This document shows, one piece after another, positions 45,029 through 56,349 of a DNA stretch of 64,000 nucleotides. Source of the DNA: Desulfovibrio intestinalis (GTDB lineage Bacteria > Desulfobacterota > Desulfovibrionia > Desulfovibrionales > Desulfovibrionaceae); assembly GCF_014202345.1 (NCBI RefSeq), contig NZ_JACHGO010000007.1, positions 1 through 64,000 on the forward strand. Reading direction: 5' to 3'. Both the position numbers and the translations under genes were made by a program. The notes under the pieces are model-generated. The model was not told where the DNA came from. It made no database searches and saw nothing but the letters and a program-made list of their open reading frames with translations. Every line of letters begins with the position of its first letter. Positions within the stretch are counted from its first letter, which is position 1.

Positions 45029-47170
45029 ATGTCCGCCAGCTCTTTCGGCTACCCACTCATCGACCTGATCGACAGACTCAGCGCGCAGCCGGTCTGCATC
45101 GCCGTCAGGCGTGGGCTGATTATTGTTCTGCCGCTCGTTCTTGTGGGCGCGTTCATGATAATGCTGGCAAACATCCCCTACGAACCCGCCCAACTGGCCA
45201 TTGACCGCGCGCTTGGCCCCACATGGCGGCAGGTTTGTAAAAATCTCATTGACGGCACATTCTCCATCGCCTCTCTGGCCCTGCTGTGCGCCATAGGCGG
45301 AGTAAGCGCCGCACATGCCAATCAGAAAAGGCAGACGCCATACGTCAGCCCAATAATGATGGCCACAGTGACGCTTTCATGCTTTTTCGTGCTAATCGCC
45401 CCGCTCAAATCCGGTATTGGCGATACGGCTTTTTCACTAAGCAGCGGCCTGTTGCTTGCCATGTGCATTGCTCTGGCTACCAGCAGTATTTTTCTGCGCC
45501 TGTCGCGCTGTTCATGGCTGCACCTGCCTGTGGAAATGGCCGGAAATGACCCGGTGGCCCGCGACGTTTTCACGCTCATCCCCGCGTCCATCATCACTAT
45601 TCTTTTTTTTGGGCTCATTCGCGCGGCGCTTGTGGCCCTGGACATGGCCAACCTGCACGAACTGTCCGAACGCATTCTTGTCCACCCCTTTTCCAAGGGC
45701 GGCGACAGTCTTGGATTTGGCGTGCTCTACAGCATGGCCTCGCAGGTGCTCTGGTTTTTCGGCGCGCACGGGCCCAACATGCTTTTTGCGGTGGAGAACG
45801 ACATTCTCATTCCCGCCGCACTGACCAATATGAACGCCATTGCCAGCGGCACGGCGCCTCCTTTCATTTTCACCAAAATGTTCTTTGACGCGTATACCCG
45901 CATGGGTGGCTCGGGCTGCACACTGGCTTTGTGTCTGGCCATTTTTCTTCGCGGCAAAGACCGCGGCGTCAAAAAGCTGTGCCTGTTCGCCCTGCTGCCC
46001 ACACTGTGCAACGTCAACGAACCTCTGCTGTTCGGCATCCCCCTTGTGCTGAACCCTGTGTACTTTATTCCCTTTATCCTGGTCCCCGCTGTACAGACGG
46101 TCATCGCCTATACGGCCACGGTTACCGGCTTCATTCCCCCAACTTCGACAGACATTGCCTGGACCACGCCCGCGCTCATGAGCGGCTACATTGTCTCGGG
46201 TTCAATCAACGGCCCCATACTTCAGGCAGTGAATCTGCTTGTGGGCCTGCTGATCTATATGCCTTTTGTCGTCATTTCCGATGCCATTCGCGAAAAGCGG
46301 AGCAAACAGGTCATGCAGAATCTGTTTACAGCAGCCAACGGCGGCGGCGTGTCAGACAACCGCAAGTGCCTGGGGCAACCCGGCGAGGTCGGACGGCTTG
46401 CCAATGCTTTGGCAGGAGATCTGACCCGCGCCCTTGATGAACCGGGGCAAATCTATCTGGTGTACCAGCCCCAGTTCAACAACGAGACTGGGCGCGTCAC
46501 TGGCGTGGAAGCCCTGCTGCGCTGGAACCACCCGGCCTACGGCAACATTGCGCCGCCCATAACGGTGGCTCTGGCGGAAGATACGGGCAACATAGACCGC
46601 CTTGGCCGGTTTGTTCTGGAAGAAGCGTGCAGGCGCAGAGCTGCCTGGAGTGGCTTTGTGGACGCTGACATGATTATGTGCATCAACGTCTCGCCCGTGC
46701 AGTTGCAGAATCCGAAATTTTCTGGCTATGTGTGGAACGCGCTCAGTGATGCGAGCCTGAAACCCGGGCAGCTTGAACTGGAAATTACCGAGTCTTCAAT
46801 GATCAAGCCAGAATCAAGCGCTCTGGAAATGCTCAGAAGCCTGCACACCGACGGAATCAGGGTTGCCATTGACGATTTCGGCATGGGGTACGCCTCACTG
46901 CGCTACCTGCGGGCCTTTCCCGTCAGCACGGTCAAGATTGACCGCTCCCTGACGGAACACATCGACAACAATATCAACCAGCAGATCGTGCGCAGCGTGC
47001 TCGAGTTGAATCAAAGTCTGGGCATCAGCACCGTGGTGGAAGGCGTTGAAAACCGGAAACAGCTCAACTCTTTCACTTCGATGGGTTTTTCTACCTTTCA
47101 GGGATATTTTTTCAGCCGCCCCCTGTGCGCCAAAGCTTGCCTTGCGTATATCAACGCCAACCGGGGCTAA
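45029..47170 (+). CDS. PTS EIIC (lactose/cellobiose type) fused to an EAL c-di-GMP phosphodiesterase
   Basis: A 713-residue fusion. Residues ~20-425 form a polytopic PTS permease domain of the cellobiose/diacetylchitobiose family: FFGAHGPN (His247) and NVNEPLLFGIPLVLNP (Glu331) match the sugar-site His and Glu of ChbC, at nearly the same numbers. Residues ~455-705 are an EAL domain with GVEALLR (Glu494), CINVSP (Asn553), LELEITES (Glu585), IDDFGMGYASL (Asp615/616), VKIDRS (Lys636), EGVEN (Glu671) and QGYFFSRPL. All catalytic positions look intact. No EIIA/EIIB gene is nearby, so the permease half may act as a sugar sensor. Confidence 0.9.
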   Translation: MSASSFGYPLIDLIDRLSAQPVCIAVRRGLIIVLPLVLVGAFMIMLANIPYEPAQLAIDRALGPTWRQVCKNLIDGTFSIASLALLCAIGGVSAAHANQKRQTPYVSPIMMATVTLSCFFVLIAPLKSGIGDTAFSLSSGLLLAMCIALATSSIFLRLSRCSWLHLPVEMAGNDPVARDVFTLIPASIITILFFGLIRAALVALDMANLHELSERILVHPFSKGGDSLGFGVLYSMASQVLWFFGAHGPNMLFAVENDILIPAALTNMNAIASGTAPPFIFTKMFFDAYTRMGGSGCTLALCLAIFLRGKDRGVKKLCLFALLPTLCNVNEPLLFGIPLVLNPVYFIPFILVPAVQTVIAYTATVTGFIPPTSTDIAWTTPALMSGYIVSGSINGPILQAVNLLVGLLIYMPFVVISDAIREKRSKQVMQNLFTAANGGGVSDNRKCLGQPGEVGRLANALAGDLTRALDEPGQIYLVYQPQFNNETGRVTGVEALLRWNHPAYGNIAPPITVALAEDTGNIDRLGRFVLEEACRRRAAWSGFVDADMIMCINVSPVQLQNPKFSGYVWNALSDASLKPGQLELEITESSMIKPESSALEMLRSLHTDGIRVAIDDFGMGYASLRYLRAFPVSTVKIDRSLTEHIDNNINQQIVRSVLELNQSLGISTVVEGVENRKQLNSFTSMGFSTFQGYFFSRPLCAKACLAYINANRG

Positions 47171-48398: not shown

Positions 48399-49484
48399 AT
48401 GACCACAGCAATGCTGCCCAATGCCGAACTTGTTGCCCACATGAAGGAGTGGCGACAGAATCTGGACAAGGATGACCGCTGGTGCATTCTCATCAACGCG
48501 GACCCTGACGCTCTGGCTTCGGCTATGGCCCTCAGGCGTATCATTTTGCCGCGCGTACACAATGCCGATATCGCCCGAGTCAATGAAGTGACCCGGCCCG
48601 ACAATCTGGCCATGATACGCTACCTGCGCATCCCCGTGCGCGCATGGCAACCCGAAAAGGCCGAACAATATACCCGTTTTGCCATGGTGGATTCGCAACC
48701 GCACCACCACAAGGCCTTTCAGGGCATTGCCTTTGACTGCATCATCGACCACCACCCCCTGCCGCCCAATGGGGGCTGCTTTATACCCTCTGCGCCGTCC
48801 CTTTGCGACATACGCCCGGGGCTTGGTGCAACTAGCACCATTATGACACGGTATTTTCAGGCGCTGCGCATGCGGCCCAGCCCCAGGCTGGCCACGGCCC
48901 TGCTGTACGGCATCCGCACGGATACCGCCGCCTTCGAGCGCTCCGGCGATGAAGACGACTTTCGCGCCTATCAATGGCTTTCGCGCCATGCAGACAACAG
49001 CCTGCTGCGCCGTATCATCCGCAGCGAGTATCTGCGTGAATGGCTGCCGCTGTTCTCACGCGCCTTCCGCAACCTTACAGACTGCCGCAGCAACGGAGCT
49101 TTTGCATGGCTCAACGAGGTCAACAGTGCCGACCTGCTGGTGGCTGTGGCCGACTTCTTCACGCGGGTGCACGACCTCAAGTGGATTGCAGTTGGCGGCA
49201 TTGTGGGCAAGACCGTCATTGTTATCTTTCGCGGTGACGGCGGAAGAGACATCGGACGTCTGGCCGATGCCTGTTTTTACGATGTGGGACAGGCCGGAGG
49301 CCACCGTAATCTGGGCCGGGCGGAATTTCCCCTTGAAGCCGTACCAGCCGATATGCGCCCCGGCGATTTTGTGCTCAAGCGGCTTGAAACCCGCAAACTG
49401 CGCCCTCAAAGCACGCCCAATGACACCGCGCCAGCTCAGGGGCAACCGGCCGCCAAGGCCAAACCAGAAAGTAATGGCAAGTAA
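48399..49484 (+). CDS. DHH-family phosphoesterase
   Basis: A RecJ/NrnA-like phosphoesterase. The DHH motif is IIDHHPLPP; ILINADPDALASAMAL and FAMVDSQP carry further metal Asp residues, and ATSTIMTRYF is the following helix. The C-terminal DHHA1 portion includes VGGIVGKTVIVIFRGDGGRD. It may degrade short RNAs or a nucleotide signal; the substrate is not evident. GGAGG abuts the ATG at 48399, so ATG 48411 is an alternative start. About 361 residues with a low-complexity tail. Confidence 0.82.
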   Translation: MTTAMLPNAELVAHMKEWRQNLDKDDRWCILINADPDALASAMALRRIILPRVHNADIARVNEVTRPDNLAMIRYLRIPVRAWQPEKAEQYTRFAMVDSQPHHHKAFQGIAFDCIIDHHPLPPNGGCFIPSAPSLCDIRPGLGATSTIMTRYFQALRMRPSPRLATALLYGIRTDTAAFERSGDEDDFRAYQWLSRHADNSLLRRIIRSEYLREWLPLFSRAFRNLTDCRSNGAFAWLNEVNSADLLVAVADFFTRVHDLKWIAVGGIVGKTVIVIFRGDGGRDIGRLADACFYDVGQAGGHRNLGRAEFPLEAVPADMRPGDFVLKRLETRKLRPQSTPNDTAPAQGQPAAKAKPESNGK

Positions 49485-49529
49485 AAACAACTTATTACAA
49501 AAAAAACAGCACAACTTTTCAATAATTTC

Positions 49530-49559
49530 TTGACAGCGCCCCGTTAACAAGCGTAATTC
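49530..49559 (+). promoter_or_regulatory. promoter of the aromatic amino acid operon
   Basis: A perfect TTGACA (49530-49535), 18 bases, TAATTC (49554-49559). It would start transcription near 49566, leaving about 25 bases before the leader peptide. Confidence 0.6.
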
Positions 49560-49591
49560 TTCTCTTGAAGTTTTTAATAAGGATTTTTGTG

Positions 49592-49696
49592 ATGCAGCGC
49601 ATTTCTTCCAACCACACCTCCGCTTACGCCGCTAGCTTTTATAGCTGGTATTTTTTTGCGTACTTTATGGATGCCTGTGGTCGGGAGCTTCGCTGA
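49592..49696 (+). CDS. aromatic operon leader peptide
   Basis: A 34-residue frame too short for routine annotation. It starts at ATG 49592 after AAGGA (8-base spacing) and ends at TGA 49694-49696. Codons 16-25 read FYSWYFFAYF: eight aromatic residues in ten, with Phe, Tyr and Trp all represented, and Tyr12 just before. The stop lies 24 bases ahead of a terminator hairpin. Position, composition and folding all fit a ribosome-stalling leader that senses Phe, Tyr and Trp charging. I know of no named symbol for it. Confidence 0.88.
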   Translation: MQRISSNHTSAYAASFYSWYFFAYFMDACGRELR

Positions 49697-49757
49697 CGCG
49701 AAAAGAAAGTTAGCAAGTTCAAAGGGCCGCAGGCAAACCGCCGGCGGCCCTTTTCTT
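49672..49757 (+). promoter_or_regulatory. attenuator: terminator and competing antiterminator of the aromatic operon
   Basis: Terminator: AAAGGGCCGC (49721-49730) with GCGGCCCTTT (49744-49753), then TCTT. Antiterminator: TGCCTGTGGTC (49672-49682) can pair over 11 bp (two G-U) with GGCCGCAGGCA (49725-49735), which removes the terminator's left arm. A ribosome stalled on the aromatic codons leaves 49672-49682 free; one reaching the stop covers it. A possible earlier pairing is GCTAGCTTT (49631-49639) with AAAGTTAGC (49706-49714), 9 bp with one G-U. Confidence 0.82.
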
Positions 49758-49860
49758 GTATGGGCAGCCGGCCCAAAAGTTAGCCGCCGAGCGGTCCATG
49801 GCGACAGGCAGTATGTAATTGATCTGCAATACGCAGCACAGCAACTGAAAGGAGCAAGCC

Positions 49861-50658
49861 ATGTACCTTGGCAAAAAAGTCCGTCTGGAACGCATTATCA
49901 ATCGTGAGAACGGGCGCACCATTATTGTACCTATGGATCACGGCGTTACCATCGGCGCTGTCGACGGTCTTGTAGACATGCGCGAAGCCGTCAACGACAT
50001 GGCCACAGGCGGCGCGGATGCCGTGCTCATGCACAAGGGCCTTGTTCGCTGCTCCCACCGCAGCGCCGGCAAGGACATCGGCCTAATCGTTCATCTTTCC
50101 GCCTCCACAGCCTTGACGCCCAACGGCAATACCAAAACACTGGTGGGCACGGTAGAAGAAGGCATCAAACACGGCGCAGACTGCGTTTCTGTTCACGTCA
50201 ATCTTGGCGACCCCAACGAGCGCCTCATGCTGGCCGACCTGGGCCGGGTGGCCGAAGCTTGCGACAACTGGCATATTCCCCTGTTGGCCATGATGTACGC
50301 CCGTGGCCCGCAGATCAAAAACGGCTTTGATAAAGATGTGGTGGCCCACTGTGCCCGCGTAGGCGTGGAACTGGGCGCAGACATCGTCAAAGTTCCTTAC
50401 ACAGGCGATGTAGACAGCTTCTCTGAAGTGGTTTCCTCCTGCTGCGTACCCGTGGTTATCGCTGGTGGCGAACGTATGGAATCCACCCGCCAGATCCTCC
50501 AGATGGTTGCTGACTCCGTCAAAGCGGGCGGTGCGGGCATTTCCGTGGGCCGCAACGTGTTCCAGCATCCCAACCGTGTTGCCCTGGTCAAGGCGCTTCG
50601 TGCCATCGTGCACGAAAATGCTTCCGTCAGTCAGGCCATGACCATTGTGGGGGAATAA
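49861..50658 (+). CDS. 2-amino-3,7-dideoxy-D-threo-hept-6-ulosonate synthase (AroA'-type)
   Basis: First enzyme of the archaeal-type route to dehydroquinate, which condenses a deoxy-ketohexose phosphate with aspartate semialdehyde. It belongs to the DhnA/class I aldolase family; IIVPMDHGVTIG, GADAVLMHKG, LLAMMYARGP, GADIVKVPYTGD and VVIAGGERM are conserved, with the Schiff-base Lys in IVKVPY. About 265 residues. It is the first structural gene after the attenuator. Ribosome site GGAG. Desulfovibrio vulgaris is known to use this route. Confidence 0.9.
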   Translation: MYLGKKVRLERIINRENGRTIIVPMDHGVTIGAVDGLVDMREAVNDMATGGADAVLMHKGLVRCSHRSAGKDIGLIVHLSASTALTPNGNTKTLVGTVEEGIKHGADCVSVHVNLGDPNERLMLADLGRVAEACDNWHIPLLAMMYARGPQIKNGFDKDVVAHCARVGVELGADIVKVPYTGDVDSFSEVVSSCCVPVVIAGGERMESTRQILQMVADSVKAGGAGISVGRNVFQHPNRVALVKALRAIVHENASVSQAMTIVGE

Positions 50659-50660
50659 AC

Positions 50661-51644
50661 ATGTCGCGCATTTACTTCAACTGCATGCCCTTCGATAAGG
50701 AAGACGTAACTCTGGCTCTTGAGTCTGGCGTGGACGGCGTTATTGTTCCCGCCGCACAGGTTGAGCATGTGGCTGGTCTTTCGCGCTGCGCCGTGTGGGC
50801 CGCTGAAGAAACGCCCCTGGCCGAGCTTAATGCCAAGGCTGATGAAGAAGCCGTACTGCAAAGGCTGCTTGCCGGAGAGCGCGTGGTGCTGGCTCGCGGC
50901 TGGGAGGTAATACCTGTAGAAAACCTTCTGGCCCAGAGCGACAGTGTGCTGGCTGAGGCTGGCACTCTGGACGAGGCCCGCCTTGCCGCAGGAATTTTGG
51001 AACGCGGTGTGGCGGGCATTGTTGTATCTAGAGAGGGCATCTCAGACCTCAAGGACATCGTAGCCCAGTGCAAGAGGATTCTTCCCCGCGAAGAACTGCT
51101 GCCCGGCGTGGTCACCCGCGTGGAACCAGTGGGCCTGGGGCATCGCGTATGCGCCGACACCCTTTCGCTGCTGCGCAAGGGCCAGGGCATGCTGGTGGGC
51201 AATTCCAGCGCGTTCACCTTCCTTGTGCATGCAGAAACCGAGCGCAATGAATATGTGGCAGCACGCCCCTTCAGGGTCAATGCCGGGGCCGTGCATGCCT
51301 ATGTACGCCTGCCTGAAGACCAGACCACCTACCTTGGCGAATTCAAGGCCGGACAGGAAGTGCTTATTGTGGACTACACCGGCGAAACCAGCGTGGCCAC
51401 CCTTGGCAGGGTCAAAATTGAAGTTCGGCCCATGCTGCTGGTGGAAGCCCAGGTGCAGACCGAAGACGGCGTAAAAACCGGAGCTGTTTTTCTGCAAAAC
51501 GCAGAGACCATCCGCCTGACTACGCCCGAGGGAGAAGCCATAAGCGTTGTGAGCCTCAAAGTCGGCGACCGCGTTCTTTGCCGCCTGGATGAAGCAGGCC
51601 GCCATTTCGGCATGCGCGTGCGCGAAGACATCCGGGAGGTATAG
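50661..51644 (+). CDS. 3-dehydroquinate synthase II (AroB'-type)
   Basis: NAD-dependent oxidative deamination and cyclisation of the ADH product to 3-dehydroquinate. The segments GILERGVAGIVVS, ETERNEYVAARPFRVNAGAV and YLGEFKAGQEVLIVDYTGET match the archaeal DHQ synthase II family, not the common AroB. About 327 residues. It starts two bases after the previous stop. Confidence 0.92.
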   Translation: MSRIYFNCMPFDKEDVTLALESGVDGVIVPAAQVEHVAGLSRCAVWAAEETPLAELNAKADEEAVLQRLLAGERVVLARGWEVIPVENLLAQSDSVLAEAGTLDEARLAAGILERGVAGIVVSREGISDLKDIVAQCKRILPREELLPGVVTRVEPVGLGHRVCADTLSLLRKGQGMLVGNSSAFTFLVHAETERNEYVAARPFRVNAGAVHAYVRLPEDQTTYLGEFKAGQEVLIVDYTGETSVATLGRVKIEVRPMLLVEAQVQTEDGVKTGAVFLQNAETIRLTTPEGEAISVVSLKVGDRVLCRLDEAGRHFGMRVREDIREV

Positions 51645-51645
51645 T

Positions 51646-52875
51646 ATGGACGGCAGCAACAGCCACTGGCCCGGTTCCGCCCCTCTGCCGGGGGCGGAAG
51701 AACAGACCCACAATGCTGACGAGCGTCTTTCGGCCATCCGCACTGAAATCGACTCTGTCGATCAGGAACTGCTGGATCTTTTCAACCGCCGTGCTTCGCT
51801 CAGCCGAGAGGTGGGACACATCAAGGCCGATGTGCCGGGCATCATCTTCAAGCCCGTGCGTGAAAAGGAAGTGCTGGACAGCCTGGCCGCCCGCAATCCC
51901 GGCCCTTTGCCAGAGGATCATCTGCGGGCCATCTGGCGCGAGATATTTTCTTCGTCACGCGCCCTGCAACGCCCGCAAAACGTCGCCTACCTTGGACCGG
52001 AAGGCACATTTTCCTACTTTGCCGGGGTGGAATATCTGGGGCATGCGGCCACTTTTCACCCCTGTAACGATCTGGTGCAGGTGTTTGAAGAAGTGTCTTC
52101 GGGGCGTTGCGAACTGGGGGTTGTTCCTCTGGAAAACTCTCTGCAAGGAACCGTTGGCGTCAGCTTTGACCTTTTTCTCAAGCACGATGTTTTTATTCAG
52201 GCAGAGCTTTTTTCGCGTATTTCTCACTGCCTTTTGAGCAATGTGCCTTCCCTGGCCGCCGTGCGCACCGTGTATTCGCACCCCCAGCCTCTGGCCCAGT
52301 GTGGCGGCTGGCTGCGCACCCATTTGCCCAATGCGGGACTGGTGCCGGTAGAATCTACCGCCGCTGCCGCCCAACGGGCCGCGCAGGGGCCAGACCAGGG
52401 ACATACCGCCGCCATCGGCCACGGCAAGCTGGCCGATCTTATGGGCCTTGGCATTCTTGCCAGCCGCATTGAGGACGAGCCCGGCAACTGGACGCGCTTT
52501 GTCATCATCGGCCCCAAGGTCAGCGGCGGGCAGGGCGGCAACAAGGTGCAGAATCCCCAGCCCGGCCATACCGGGGCAGACAAAACATCGCTGCTTTTCA
52601 CCCTGCCCGACAAAGCAGGAGCGCTTTCGCATGTGCTGGATCTGCTGGCGACGCACGGCATAAACATGCGCAAGCTGGAATCGCGCCCCCTGCGCGGCCA
52701 GTGCTGGAAGTATGTTTTCTTTGCCGATGTGGAAAGTGACCTCGAAGATCCCCGCTATGCCGATTTGCTGACAGCTCTGCACGAGACCTGTACCAGTTTT
52801 CGCATTTTGGGCAGCTACCCTATGGGGCCGCAGCTGGACCGCCTTGACCTTCACACGGATGAATCGGAGCAGTAA
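51646..52875 (+). CDS. pheA: bifunctional chorismate mutase/prephenate dehydratase
   Basis: Converts chorismate to prephenate and then phenylpyruvate. An N-terminal AroQ-type mutase (LSAIRTEIDSVDQELLDLFN, with RASLSREVGHIK) precedes a dehydratase domain (VAYLGPEGTFSYFA, GVVPLENSLQGTVG, NWTRFVIIG) and an ACT domain for Phe feedback (SLLFTLPDKAGALSHVLDLL, with the ESRP motif in KLESRPLRG). About 409 residues. GGGAGG precedes ATG 51646. Confidence 0.95.
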   Translation: MDGSNSHWPGSAPLPGAEEQTHNADERLSAIRTEIDSVDQELLDLFNRRASLSREVGHIKADVPGIIFKPVREKEVLDSLAARNPGPLPEDHLRAIWREIFSSSRALQRPQNVAYLGPEGTFSYFAGVEYLGHAATFHPCNDLVQVFEEVSSGRCELGVVPLENSLQGTVGVSFDLFLKHDVFIQAELFSRISHCLLSNVPSLAAVRTVYSHPQPLAQCGGWLRTHLPNAGLVPVESTAAAAQRAAQGPDQGHTAAIGHGKLADLMGLGILASRIEDEPGNWTRFVIIGPKVSGGQGGNKVQNPQPGHTGADKTSLLFTLPDKAGALSHVLDLLATHGINMRKLESRPLRGQCWKYVFFADVESDLEDPRYADLLTALHETCTSFRILGSYPMGPQLDRLDLHTDESEQ

Positions 52876-52880
52876 GAATC

Positions 52881-54335
52881 ATGAGCCAGACCAAGGACAC
52901 CGTGGCAGTCGCCAACAATGTGAGCGCTACAGGCGCAGTGGAAACTGTGGCAGTTACCGCCCCGGCTTCAAAGTCGGTTTCGCACCGCTATCTTATGGGC
53001 GCAGCCCTGGCCCACGGCACATCCATTGTGCGCCACACGCTTGAAAGCCGCGACCTGGAACGCACCCGTGCCATCCTTTGCGCGGCAGGCGCAACAATGG
53101 AAGAACTGCCCGAAAGCACCGCCTCTTCCGGGGCGTGGCGCGTTACGGGCATGAACGGCAGGCCTTCGGGCGGCACCGCCGCAGCACCCCTCTCCTGTGA
53201 CGTGGAGGAATCGGGCACCACCTGCCGCCTGCTTACGGCAGTACTGGCCGCCGGGCACGGGGTGTTTCGCATCCACGGCGCAGGGCGCATGCACGAGCGG
53301 CCCATTGCCGAGCTGACCAACGCTCTGGCCACACTGGGAACAAAAACCGCCTTTGAAGAAAAGCCGGACTGTCCGCCCTGTGTCATCACCGCCGACGGCC
53401 TTGACCCAGCGCTATGCAACGGCATGGTGGAACTGGGCATGGATATATCCAGCCAGTATTTTTCAGGCCTGCTGCTGGCCGCGCCTATGGGGCCAGCCCC
53501 CCTGACCCTCTCTCTGGGCGGGCAAAAGGCCGTGTCCTGGCCCTATGTTGGCCTGACGCTGCAATGCCTTACAGACTACGGCATCAAGTTTGAAGTGCAC
53601 ACCCGCCAGACCCCCGAGGCCCAGTGGAGCACACTGCCCGACGGCGCATGGCGTCAGCTTGCCGAGGCCCGGCCCGGCTGTTTGCGCGTCACCGTGCATC
53701 CCGGCCACTACCGCGCCGGAGAATACACGGTGGAAGGCGACTGGTCGGGCGCGTCCTACCTGCTGGCCGCTGGCGCTTTGGGCCGCCGCCCTGTACGTGT
53801 GGAGGGTCTGCGCGCCGACTCCCTGCAAGGCGACCGCGCCATGCTGGAAATTTTGCAAAAAATGGGAGCACAGGTACGCGTGGAGCCGCAGGCAGTCACG
53901 GTGTCTCCCTCCCGTCTGCACGGCGTGGAACTGGACATGGGGCACTGCCCCGACCTTGTGCCCACGGTAGCCATGCTGGCGGCCTTTGCCCAGGGTTCCA
54001 CGCGCATCCGCAATGTGGCCCACCTGCGCCACAAGGAATCTGACCGCATCAAGGCTCCGGCCATAGAACTTGCCAAAACTGGCGTTATTGTGGACGAACT
54101 TTCAGACGGCATGCTCATCAACGGTCTTGGCGGGCGCAACAATGGCAAGCCCAACCATCCCGTACTGCCGGAAGGGCAAAACCTGTCGTCCCACAACGAC
54201 CACCGTATCGCTATGTCGCTGGCTCTGCTGGACTTGTGCCAGCCCGAAGCCACAGTGCGTTCCCGGCTGGACGATCCCTCTGTGGTCAGCAAGTCATTTC
54301 CGCAGTTCTGGAATATATGGGAGAAGCTGGCATGA
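52881..54335 (+). CDS. aroA: 3-phosphoshikimate 1-carboxyvinyltransferase (EPSP synthase)
   Basis: Penultimate step to chorismate. Family patterns are APASKSVSHRYLMGAAL, EESGTTCRLLTAVLA, LGMDISSQYFSGLLLAAP, VEGDWSGASYLLAAGAL, LRHKESDRIKA and NDHRIAMSLALL. About 484 residues, with insertions such as a segment around residues 80-100. The place of the usual GNAGTA loop is taken by ESGTT, a divergent form. The stop overlaps the tyrA start (ATGA). Confidence 0.95.
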   Translation: MSQTKDTVAVANNVSATGAVETVAVTAPASKSVSHRYLMGAALAHGTSIVRHTLESRDLERTRAILCAAGATMEELPESTASSGAWRVTGMNGRPSGGTAAAPLSCDVEESGTTCRLLTAVLAAGHGVFRIHGAGRMHERPIAELTNALATLGTKTAFEEKPDCPPCVITADGLDPALCNGMVELGMDISSQYFSGLLLAAPMGPAPLTLSLGGQKAVSWPYVGLTLQCLTDYGIKFEVHTRQTPEAQWSTLPDGAWRQLAEARPGCLRVTVHPGHYRAGEYTVEGDWSGASYLLAAGALGRRPVRVEGLRADSLQGDRAMLEILQKMGAQVRVEPQAVTVSPSRLHGVELDMGHCPDLVPTVAMLAAFAQGSTRIRNVAHLRHKESDRIKAPAIELAKTGVIVDELSDGMLINGLGGRNNGKPNHPVLPEGQNLSSHNDHRIAMSLALLDLCQPEATVRSRLDDPSVVSKSFPQFWNIWEKLA

Positions 54336-55365: not shown

Positions 55366-56287
55366 TATTAATGCCCTGCGGGTACGATGGCTTTTCTTCT
55401 CTTTAGTTCTGCCGCACGCCGCGCAGGCGGCCCAAATAACAGAATCTGAAAAGCCTCCGTGCCCGCAGGGCACAACACATTTCTCCCAAAGACCAACCCC
55501 CAACTTTTGCGACAACCAAGCCCCAAGAGCCCATATCCCTCAAAAACTGGCACACAACGCGAAAGCGCTCGATGGCATTGCGCGGCGCGCAGGGAGATCA
55601 CCCGACCAAGGGGAGGGAAGCTCCCGCAGCAATAGCCGCGCAGCCCTCGCGAAATGGTGGAATTGGGAAAGCCCTTGAAGGCTCACCCGTGGAAATAAAG
55701 ATATATGGAAAACCCAGCGGGGTCGTCCGGGGGGAGTGCAGAGGGGGCCTCGGAGGGGCGGCAGCCCCTAACAGGCCCCCTCGCCGCCCGCTGCGAAAGC
55801 GGCCCAAACAGCATAGACAAAGAAGCCTCAGTGCCCGCAGGGCATATCCTTCCCCGCAAAAGCAGTTTTATTCTTCCTCACCCGCTTGCCGGATAACCCC
55901 GCCCCACAAGCACAACGCTCTCCTTTCAAAGACCAAATTCTGAATTCTCACGATTACCCCCCAAGCGTCCAGACTACCCCAAAACTGACACGCCACGCGA
56001 AAGACCACGATGGCATTGCGCGGCGCGCAGGGAGATCACCCGACCAAGGGGAGGGAAGCTCCCGCAGCAATAGCCGCACAACCCTCGCAAAATTATGGAA
56101 TTGGGAAAGCCCTTGAAGGCTCACGCGTAGAAATGGAGATATATGGAAAACCCAGCGGGGTCGTCCGGGGGGAGTGCAGAGGGGGCCTCGGAGGGGCGGC
56201 AGCCCCTAACAGGTCCCCTCGCCGCCCGCTGCGAAAGCGGCCCAAACAAAAGGAACGGGAAAGCCTCAGTGCCCGCAGGGCACGACT
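55366..56287 (+). repeat. repeat family A: fold-back fragment and two near-full tandem copies
   Basis: Fragment at 55366-55475 combines an inverted right end (GCCCTGCGGGTACGATGG) with a direct right end (CCTCCGTGCCCGCAGGGCAC). Near-full copies lie at 55560-55850 and 55995-56287; they are nearly identical in their cores, differing at scattered positions. Both carry an open frame of ~100 codons beginning MALRGAQGD, but the 15640 copy has an early stop and the copy at 14990 shifts frame. No ribosome site precedes the ATG. Confidence 0.8.
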
Positions 56288-56349
56288 CACTTCTCTCAAA
56301 GACCAGACCAAAACTTTGGCAGCAAGCAAACCCTAAACTACCTACCCCC

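Follow-up and report, generated by a model that had tools for sequence, protein, structure and literature searches.

What controls entry into aromatic amino acid synthesis in Desulfovibrio intestinalis, and does the short frame rich in aromatic codons ahead of the operon take part in it? The window (the whole stretch of DNA analyzed, 64,000 nt) carries five genes of this operon:

49861-50658, + strand: aroA′, 2-amino-3,7-dideoxy-D-threo-hept-6-ulosonate synthase (TIGR01949)
50661-51644, + strand: aroB′, 3-dehydroquinate synthase II (PF01959)
51589-52875, + strand: pheA, chorismate mutase / prephenate dehydratase / ACT (longest ORF given; translation probably starts further 3′)
52881-54335, + strand: EPSP synthase (aroA; called aroF in PMC1173090)
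54236-55231, + strand: tyrA, prephenate dehydrogenase (longest ORF given; translation probably starts further 3′)

The regulation of the AroA′/AroB′ route to dehydroquinate has hardly been studied. Searches for both Pfam classes of DAHP synthase (I and II) found none in the window genome, in keeping with a claim of an earlier note on this DNA. We use this absence for the window genome alone: PF00793 also covers KDO-8-phosphate synthase, and most family-wide PF00793 matches have the length of that enzyme, so these counts were unusable for DAHP synthase and were dropped. The same note's suggestion that attenuation could be the main control has to be qualified. PheA has an ACT domain, making feedback inhibition at the PheA step likely, and attenuation need not be the sole control.

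From its sequence features, we conclude that a ribosome-mediated transcription attenuator very probably controls the aroA′-aroB′-pheA-EPSP synthase-tyrA operon. Its elements are as follows:

49530-49559, + strand: probable promoter, TTGACA, 18-nt spacer and weak -10 TAATTC (inferred)
49579-49583, + strand: Shine-Dalgarno AAGGA of the leader peptide (from sequence)
49592-49696, + strand: leader peptide of 34 codons, reading MQRISSNHTSAYAASFYSWYFFAYFMDACGRELR*, with homologous leaders in relatives
49605-49620, + strand: candidate protector strand, partner of the antiterminator strand in ribosome-free RNA (fold of 49566-49714)
49637-49666, + strand: regulatory codons F Y S W Y F F A Y F, codons 16-25
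49672-49682, + strand: antiterminator 5′ strand, within the leader's last codons
49685-49697, + strand: antiterminator inner extension, 5′ side, partner 49709-49720 (from fold)
49709-49720, + strand: antiterminator inner extension, 3′ side (from fold)
49721-49753, + strand: intrinsic terminator stem-loop, with a U tract to 49757 (-24.6 kcal/mol)
49725-49735, + strand: antiterminator 3′ strand, which is the terminator left arm

The leader is a translatable frame with a start and a ribosome-binding site 5′ of the operon, kept in relatives, and it holds a run of codons for the operon's end products. Translation confirmed both the position of the frame and the run at codons 16-25 that had been read from the sequence earlier, and Phe, Tyr and Trp all occur in this run, bearing out the description of a leader that reads three aromatic amino acids. 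When the upstream region was dinucleotide-shuffled 1000 times, one shuffle yielded a short frame with eight aromatics in 12 codons. A sigma-70 consensus scan of the leader region called no promoter and missed the TTGACA element, a counterpart of which (TTGACA-N17/18-TAAYRT) lies ~55 nt 5′ of the leader in several close relatives (e.g., locus L079).

Ahead of the first structural gene, the intrinsic terminator has the arms AAAGGGCCGC-A-GGC / GCC-G-GCGGCCCTTT followed by the U tract. The sigma-70 scan's single terminator call lay inside the leader (49631-49649); it missed this stem-loop, probably because of the stem mismatch. Folding placed it where the earlier note had, and likewise recovered the 11-pair antiterminator (two pairs being G-U) that overlaps the terminator left arm. 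The fold of 49566-49770, which the note had proposed as a check, was more stable than 200/200 dinucleotide shuffles (z -3.4). With inner helices 49685-49690/49715-49720 and 49692-49697/49709-49714, the antiterminator extends further than previously described, to 23 pairs and -35.6 kcal/mol versus -24.6 for the terminator. The protector helix may hold the antiterminator strand when the leader is untranslated. It was found in 129 of 148 relatives versus 60% in shuffles, a weak enrichment; because this enrichment across relatives is only moderate, we treat the protector as likely, though unproven.

We infer stalling, termination and read-through from these elements. RNA polymerase would be followed along the leader by a translating ribosome. 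If too little tRNA-Phe, -Tyr or -Trp is charged, this ribosome would stall in codons 16-22 with its front edge short of 49672, leaving 49672-49697 to pair with 49709-49735; the terminator left arm would then be occupied, resulting in read-through. With charged aromatic tRNAs, a ribosome at the stop codon would mask the antiterminator 5′ strand, the terminator would form and transcription would end near 49757. Without translation, the protector may trap the antiterminator strand, giving termination by default.

Simulated ribosome positions agree with this geometry, which the earlier note had also proposed. With the front edge set ~16 nt beyond the first base of the P-site codon (footprint positions being general knowledge), all 11 antiterminator pairs are free when the A-site is at codons 16-22 and six are free at codon 25, versus 0 possible at codon 30 or the stop. 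The complete terminator, once transcribed, is favored in every simulated position, so that kinetics must decide the outcome, as they do in classical attenuators.

To what extent is this arrangement kept? We collected 189 AroA′ copies from relatives that are not independent of one another. An aromatic leader and then a strong terminator precede ~150 aroA′ genes of the family Desulfovibrionaceae, and leaders with an aromatic run stand before nearly all aroA′ copies that have aroB′ next downstream. A frame with at least seven aromatics in 12 codons is present in 67% of 184 aroA′ upstream regions versus 0.3% in shuffles. A hairpin and U tract follow 158/161 leaders, usually 20-40 nt past the leader stop (a few hairpins are weak or misplaced), and in most relatives the best partner of the terminator left arm lies a few nucleotides past the last aromatic codon. 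The antiterminator exceeds the terminator in stability in 143/148 relatives; antiterminators are weak in some Tyr leaders (L135, L174 and L177). Outside the family, 14 of 25 aroA′ loci, from seven other families of the phylum, have an aromatic leader and strong terminator.

We aligned 85 distinct attenuator sequences (alignment A1). The antiterminator is paired in 97.4% of cells, compared to 36-42% after a shift of the partner by 1-3 columns, and the terminator in 99.2%, with changes on both sides at five pairs. In the antiterminator, both sides change at one pair only, columns 11-84 (U49676-A49731 in the window), which reads UA in 49 sequences, CG in 23, UG in nine and AU in four and is broken in 0; the remaining pairs vary on one side or on none. 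Column 84 faces a non-pairing terminator partner in most sequences (A.G 31, G.G 20, others), and therefore the covariation of columns 11-84 belongs to the antiterminator. The mutually exclusive antiterminator is thus backed by covariation independent of the terminator, and leader, stems and geometry are kept in close and distant relatives alike, so the lack of conservation that the earlier note named as refuting did not occur. Conservation and covariation together support the reading of the locus as an attenuator.

The covarying RNA also bears on how the peptide itself should be read. Leader tails ACG, ARG and ASG accompany terminators GCAGG, GCGGG and GCTGG, respectively, and pairing of the RNA with the terminator left arm explains why the tail is conserved. 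We consider it very unlikely that the leader peptide has an additional trans role. There is a precedent in another phylum, peTrpL of Sinorhizobium (PMC7298713), but between genera the peptide is not conserved outside the aromatic run and the RNA-constrained tail. Such a role would in any case be an addition, and not an alternative, to attenuation. Less probable still is a TnaC-like nascent arrest peptide responding to a free aromatic ligand instead of tRNA charging. The leaders are short and have a conserved ACGRE-like tail, as such a peptide might, but RNA pairing accounts for that tail, and the leaders swap Phe, Tyr and Trp freely yet remain rich in aromatics, a pattern that agrees with codon reading but not with a fixed arrest motif. 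Finally, a terminator is expected after a gene and the upstream DHH-family gene (48399-49484) is co-directional with the operon, but the idea that the hairpin merely terminates this gene behind a chance frame is the most improbable of the three and is refuted by the antiterminator covariation, the hairpin moreover lying ~236 nt past that gene's stop and behind the TTGACA element, the gene going undetected beside many conserved attenuator copies, and the aromatic frame and antiterminator tracking the downstream gene, even at other sites where aroA′ is monocistronic.

Under the attenuator reading, which amino acids does each leader address? The codon content of the leaders matched their gene context. 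At least one Trp codon is present in 27/27 leaders of operons with trp genes versus 6/37 solo copies (Fisher 1e-12), and at least two in 17/27 operons with trp genes versus 0/38 without; Fisher values overstate this evidence because the relatives are not independent, and the within-genome contrast is less affected. In 36 genomes where aroA′ is present both in the operon and as extra copies, Trp codons occur in all of the operon leaders, and the extra aroA′ copies have Phe-only (e.g., RFFFFFFF, L115), Tyr-only (e.g., YAYYYYY, L135) or mixed Phe/Tyr leaders, or none that we found. Mailhella-type operons of aroA′-aroB′-pheA alone (L093, L095 and L100) have leaders that read Phe and Tyr and no Trp. 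The monocistronic aroA′ copies were grouped by leader:

L115, L117, L120, L121, L126, L128, L131, L137, L139: Phe-only leaders
L124, L129, L135, L145, L163, L174, L194, L196, L206: Tyr-dominated leaders
L161, L166, L172, L192, L193, L133, L136, L140, L180, L191: no aromatic leader detected (mostly one clade)

Among the extra copies, L163 (listed above) and L199 also have Tyr leaders. Exceptions to the pattern are the Trp-rich leaders on monocistronic or contig-end aroA′ copies L091, L092 and L101. At L091 and L092, aroA′ has the leader WYYWWY and no adjoining aroB′; UBA3823 also has a Trp-free operon copy, L090. In a protein tree, most Phe-leader copies cluster, as do most Tyr-leader copies, and at least two origins are forced for each; a single shared origin of all Phe-only copies was therefore rejected.

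To find other genes behind the attenuator, we built covariance model R1 from it. At a cut-off of E 0.001, R1 matched in 87/99 family genomes, mostly at aroA′. Strong matches elsewhere lie 5′ of an SSF-family symporter of ~532 residues in 14 genomes, with Phe-dominated leaders:

L277, L287-L295, L298, L307, L308, L310: SSF symporter loci (n=14)

An NCBIfam search assigned no specific substrate to the symporter; from its Phe-dominated leader, we predict that it is a phenylalanine importer. SSF family members in the window genome are distant from it (best 30% identity). Matches 5′ of trpE carry WW leaders (L309, L312 and L318). One match, L301, with leader NYWWRG, lies 5′ of an iron-type alcohol dehydrogenase and may be either chance or a Trp-responsive gene. 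The weaker matches inspected (E ~1e-5 or more) were set aside, being either ordinary hairpins that lack an aromatic leader or the same hairpin read on its reverse strand.

On balance, we favor the view that in Desulfovibrionaceae, and perhaps in the whole phylum, one attenuator scaffold constitutes an aromatic regulon in which leader codons alone set what each member responds to: Phe, Tyr and Trp on the common operon, Trp on trp operons, Phe only or Tyr only on duplicate AroA′ and Phe only on the SSF symporter as phenylalanine importer. If so, attenuation plays the part in the AroA′ route that AroF/AroG/AroH play in the DAHP route of E. coli. These E. coli DAHP synthases are first-step isozymes tuned to Tyr, Phe and Trp by allostery and repressors; AroA′ is an unrelated enzyme, and its tuning would reside in leader codons. 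Since the same switch is re-coded to Phe only or Tyr only in relatives, the target amino acid can be read from the DNA, and control of this route becomes readable from sequence in many sulphate reducers. Through their leaders, the duplicate first-step genes offer a naturally occurring set of re-coded attenuators that share one RNA scaffold, in which the evolution of leader specificity can be studied, and leaders suggest likely substrates for genes beyond the reach of homology, such as the symporter.

Multivalent leaders have precedents in ilvL (Ile/Val/Leu) and thrL (Thr/Ile), each reading several end products of a shared pathway; here, unlike in those systems, the leader is aromatic, and duplicate first-step genes carry versions of the same scaffold that are re-coded to one amino acid each. 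The E. coli pheL/pheA attenuator (Rfam RF01859, Phe_leader) resembles the window attenuator in having a leader with a run of Phe codons, an antiterminator that overlaps the terminator, and biosynthetic genes downstream. Unlike pheL, the window leader reads Phe, Tyr and Trp, has its antiterminator strand within the leader frame and controls entry into the AroA′/AroB′ route. RF01859 gave a full-length match to the leader region far below the gathering score (16.6 bits versus a cut-off of 55, E = 6). At the gathering cut-off, no Rfam family matched the window locus or 12 related loci, and no T-box or riboswitch family matched 49300-50000 up to E = 10. The E. coli trpL/trp attenuator shares the general mechanism and differs in target amino acids and genes.

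An attenuator was anticipated at this type of operon. Table 7 of a 2005 paper, drawn from Merino's website, lists a putative attenuator before D. vulgaris aroA′>aroB′>aroQ-pheA>aroF>tyrA>[trp] (PMC1173090), the same operon type and family; the entry mentions neither a leader peptide and its codon content nor covariation, isozyme-specific versions or a symporter. In the open-access literature on attenuation with Desulfovibrio or the AroA′ route, this paper alone was directly relevant, and nothing was found on leader content, isozyme-specific leaders or the symporter. Aromatic and tryptophan go unmentioned in the excerpted text of Rodionov 2004 (PMC545781). Transcriptomes report that the Desulfovibrio aromatic cluster is regulated under pressure (PMC4162548) and under nitrate or NO, the nitrate effect being called unexplained by the authors (PMC5701242); the word "attenuation" is absent from both. 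The mechanism is classical and the finding, though good, is less novel than the title of the earlier note suggests, the newness being the codon-tuned family around the attenuator.

Elsewhere in the window genome, the trp genes lie on a separate contig with their own leader, MNAFPNTISCSFQGWWWRIQLRRGDVRAK, and terminator (L113:3756-3900, G000 contig C2). This WWW leader is trpL-like, and such leaders are found in 6/6 examined genomes of the genus, five of which also have a terminator there. The second AroA′ of the genome lies beside isochorismate synthase, and no leader was found for it. It follows a chorismate-mutase/PchB-like frame and the isochorismate synthase (L114:2240-4921), and the arrangement suggests that this copy is devoted to making an isochorismate or salicylate product. 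In the window itself, 45029-47170 encodes a 713-aa protein in which a PTS EIIC membrane domain is fused to a c-di-GMP phosphodiesterase (EAL) domain. Two near-identical stretches 3′ of tyrA (55572-55943 and 56010-56336), with frames beginning MALRGAQGDHPTKGREAPAAIAAQPS and a similar frame in L283, are probably a dispersed repeat.
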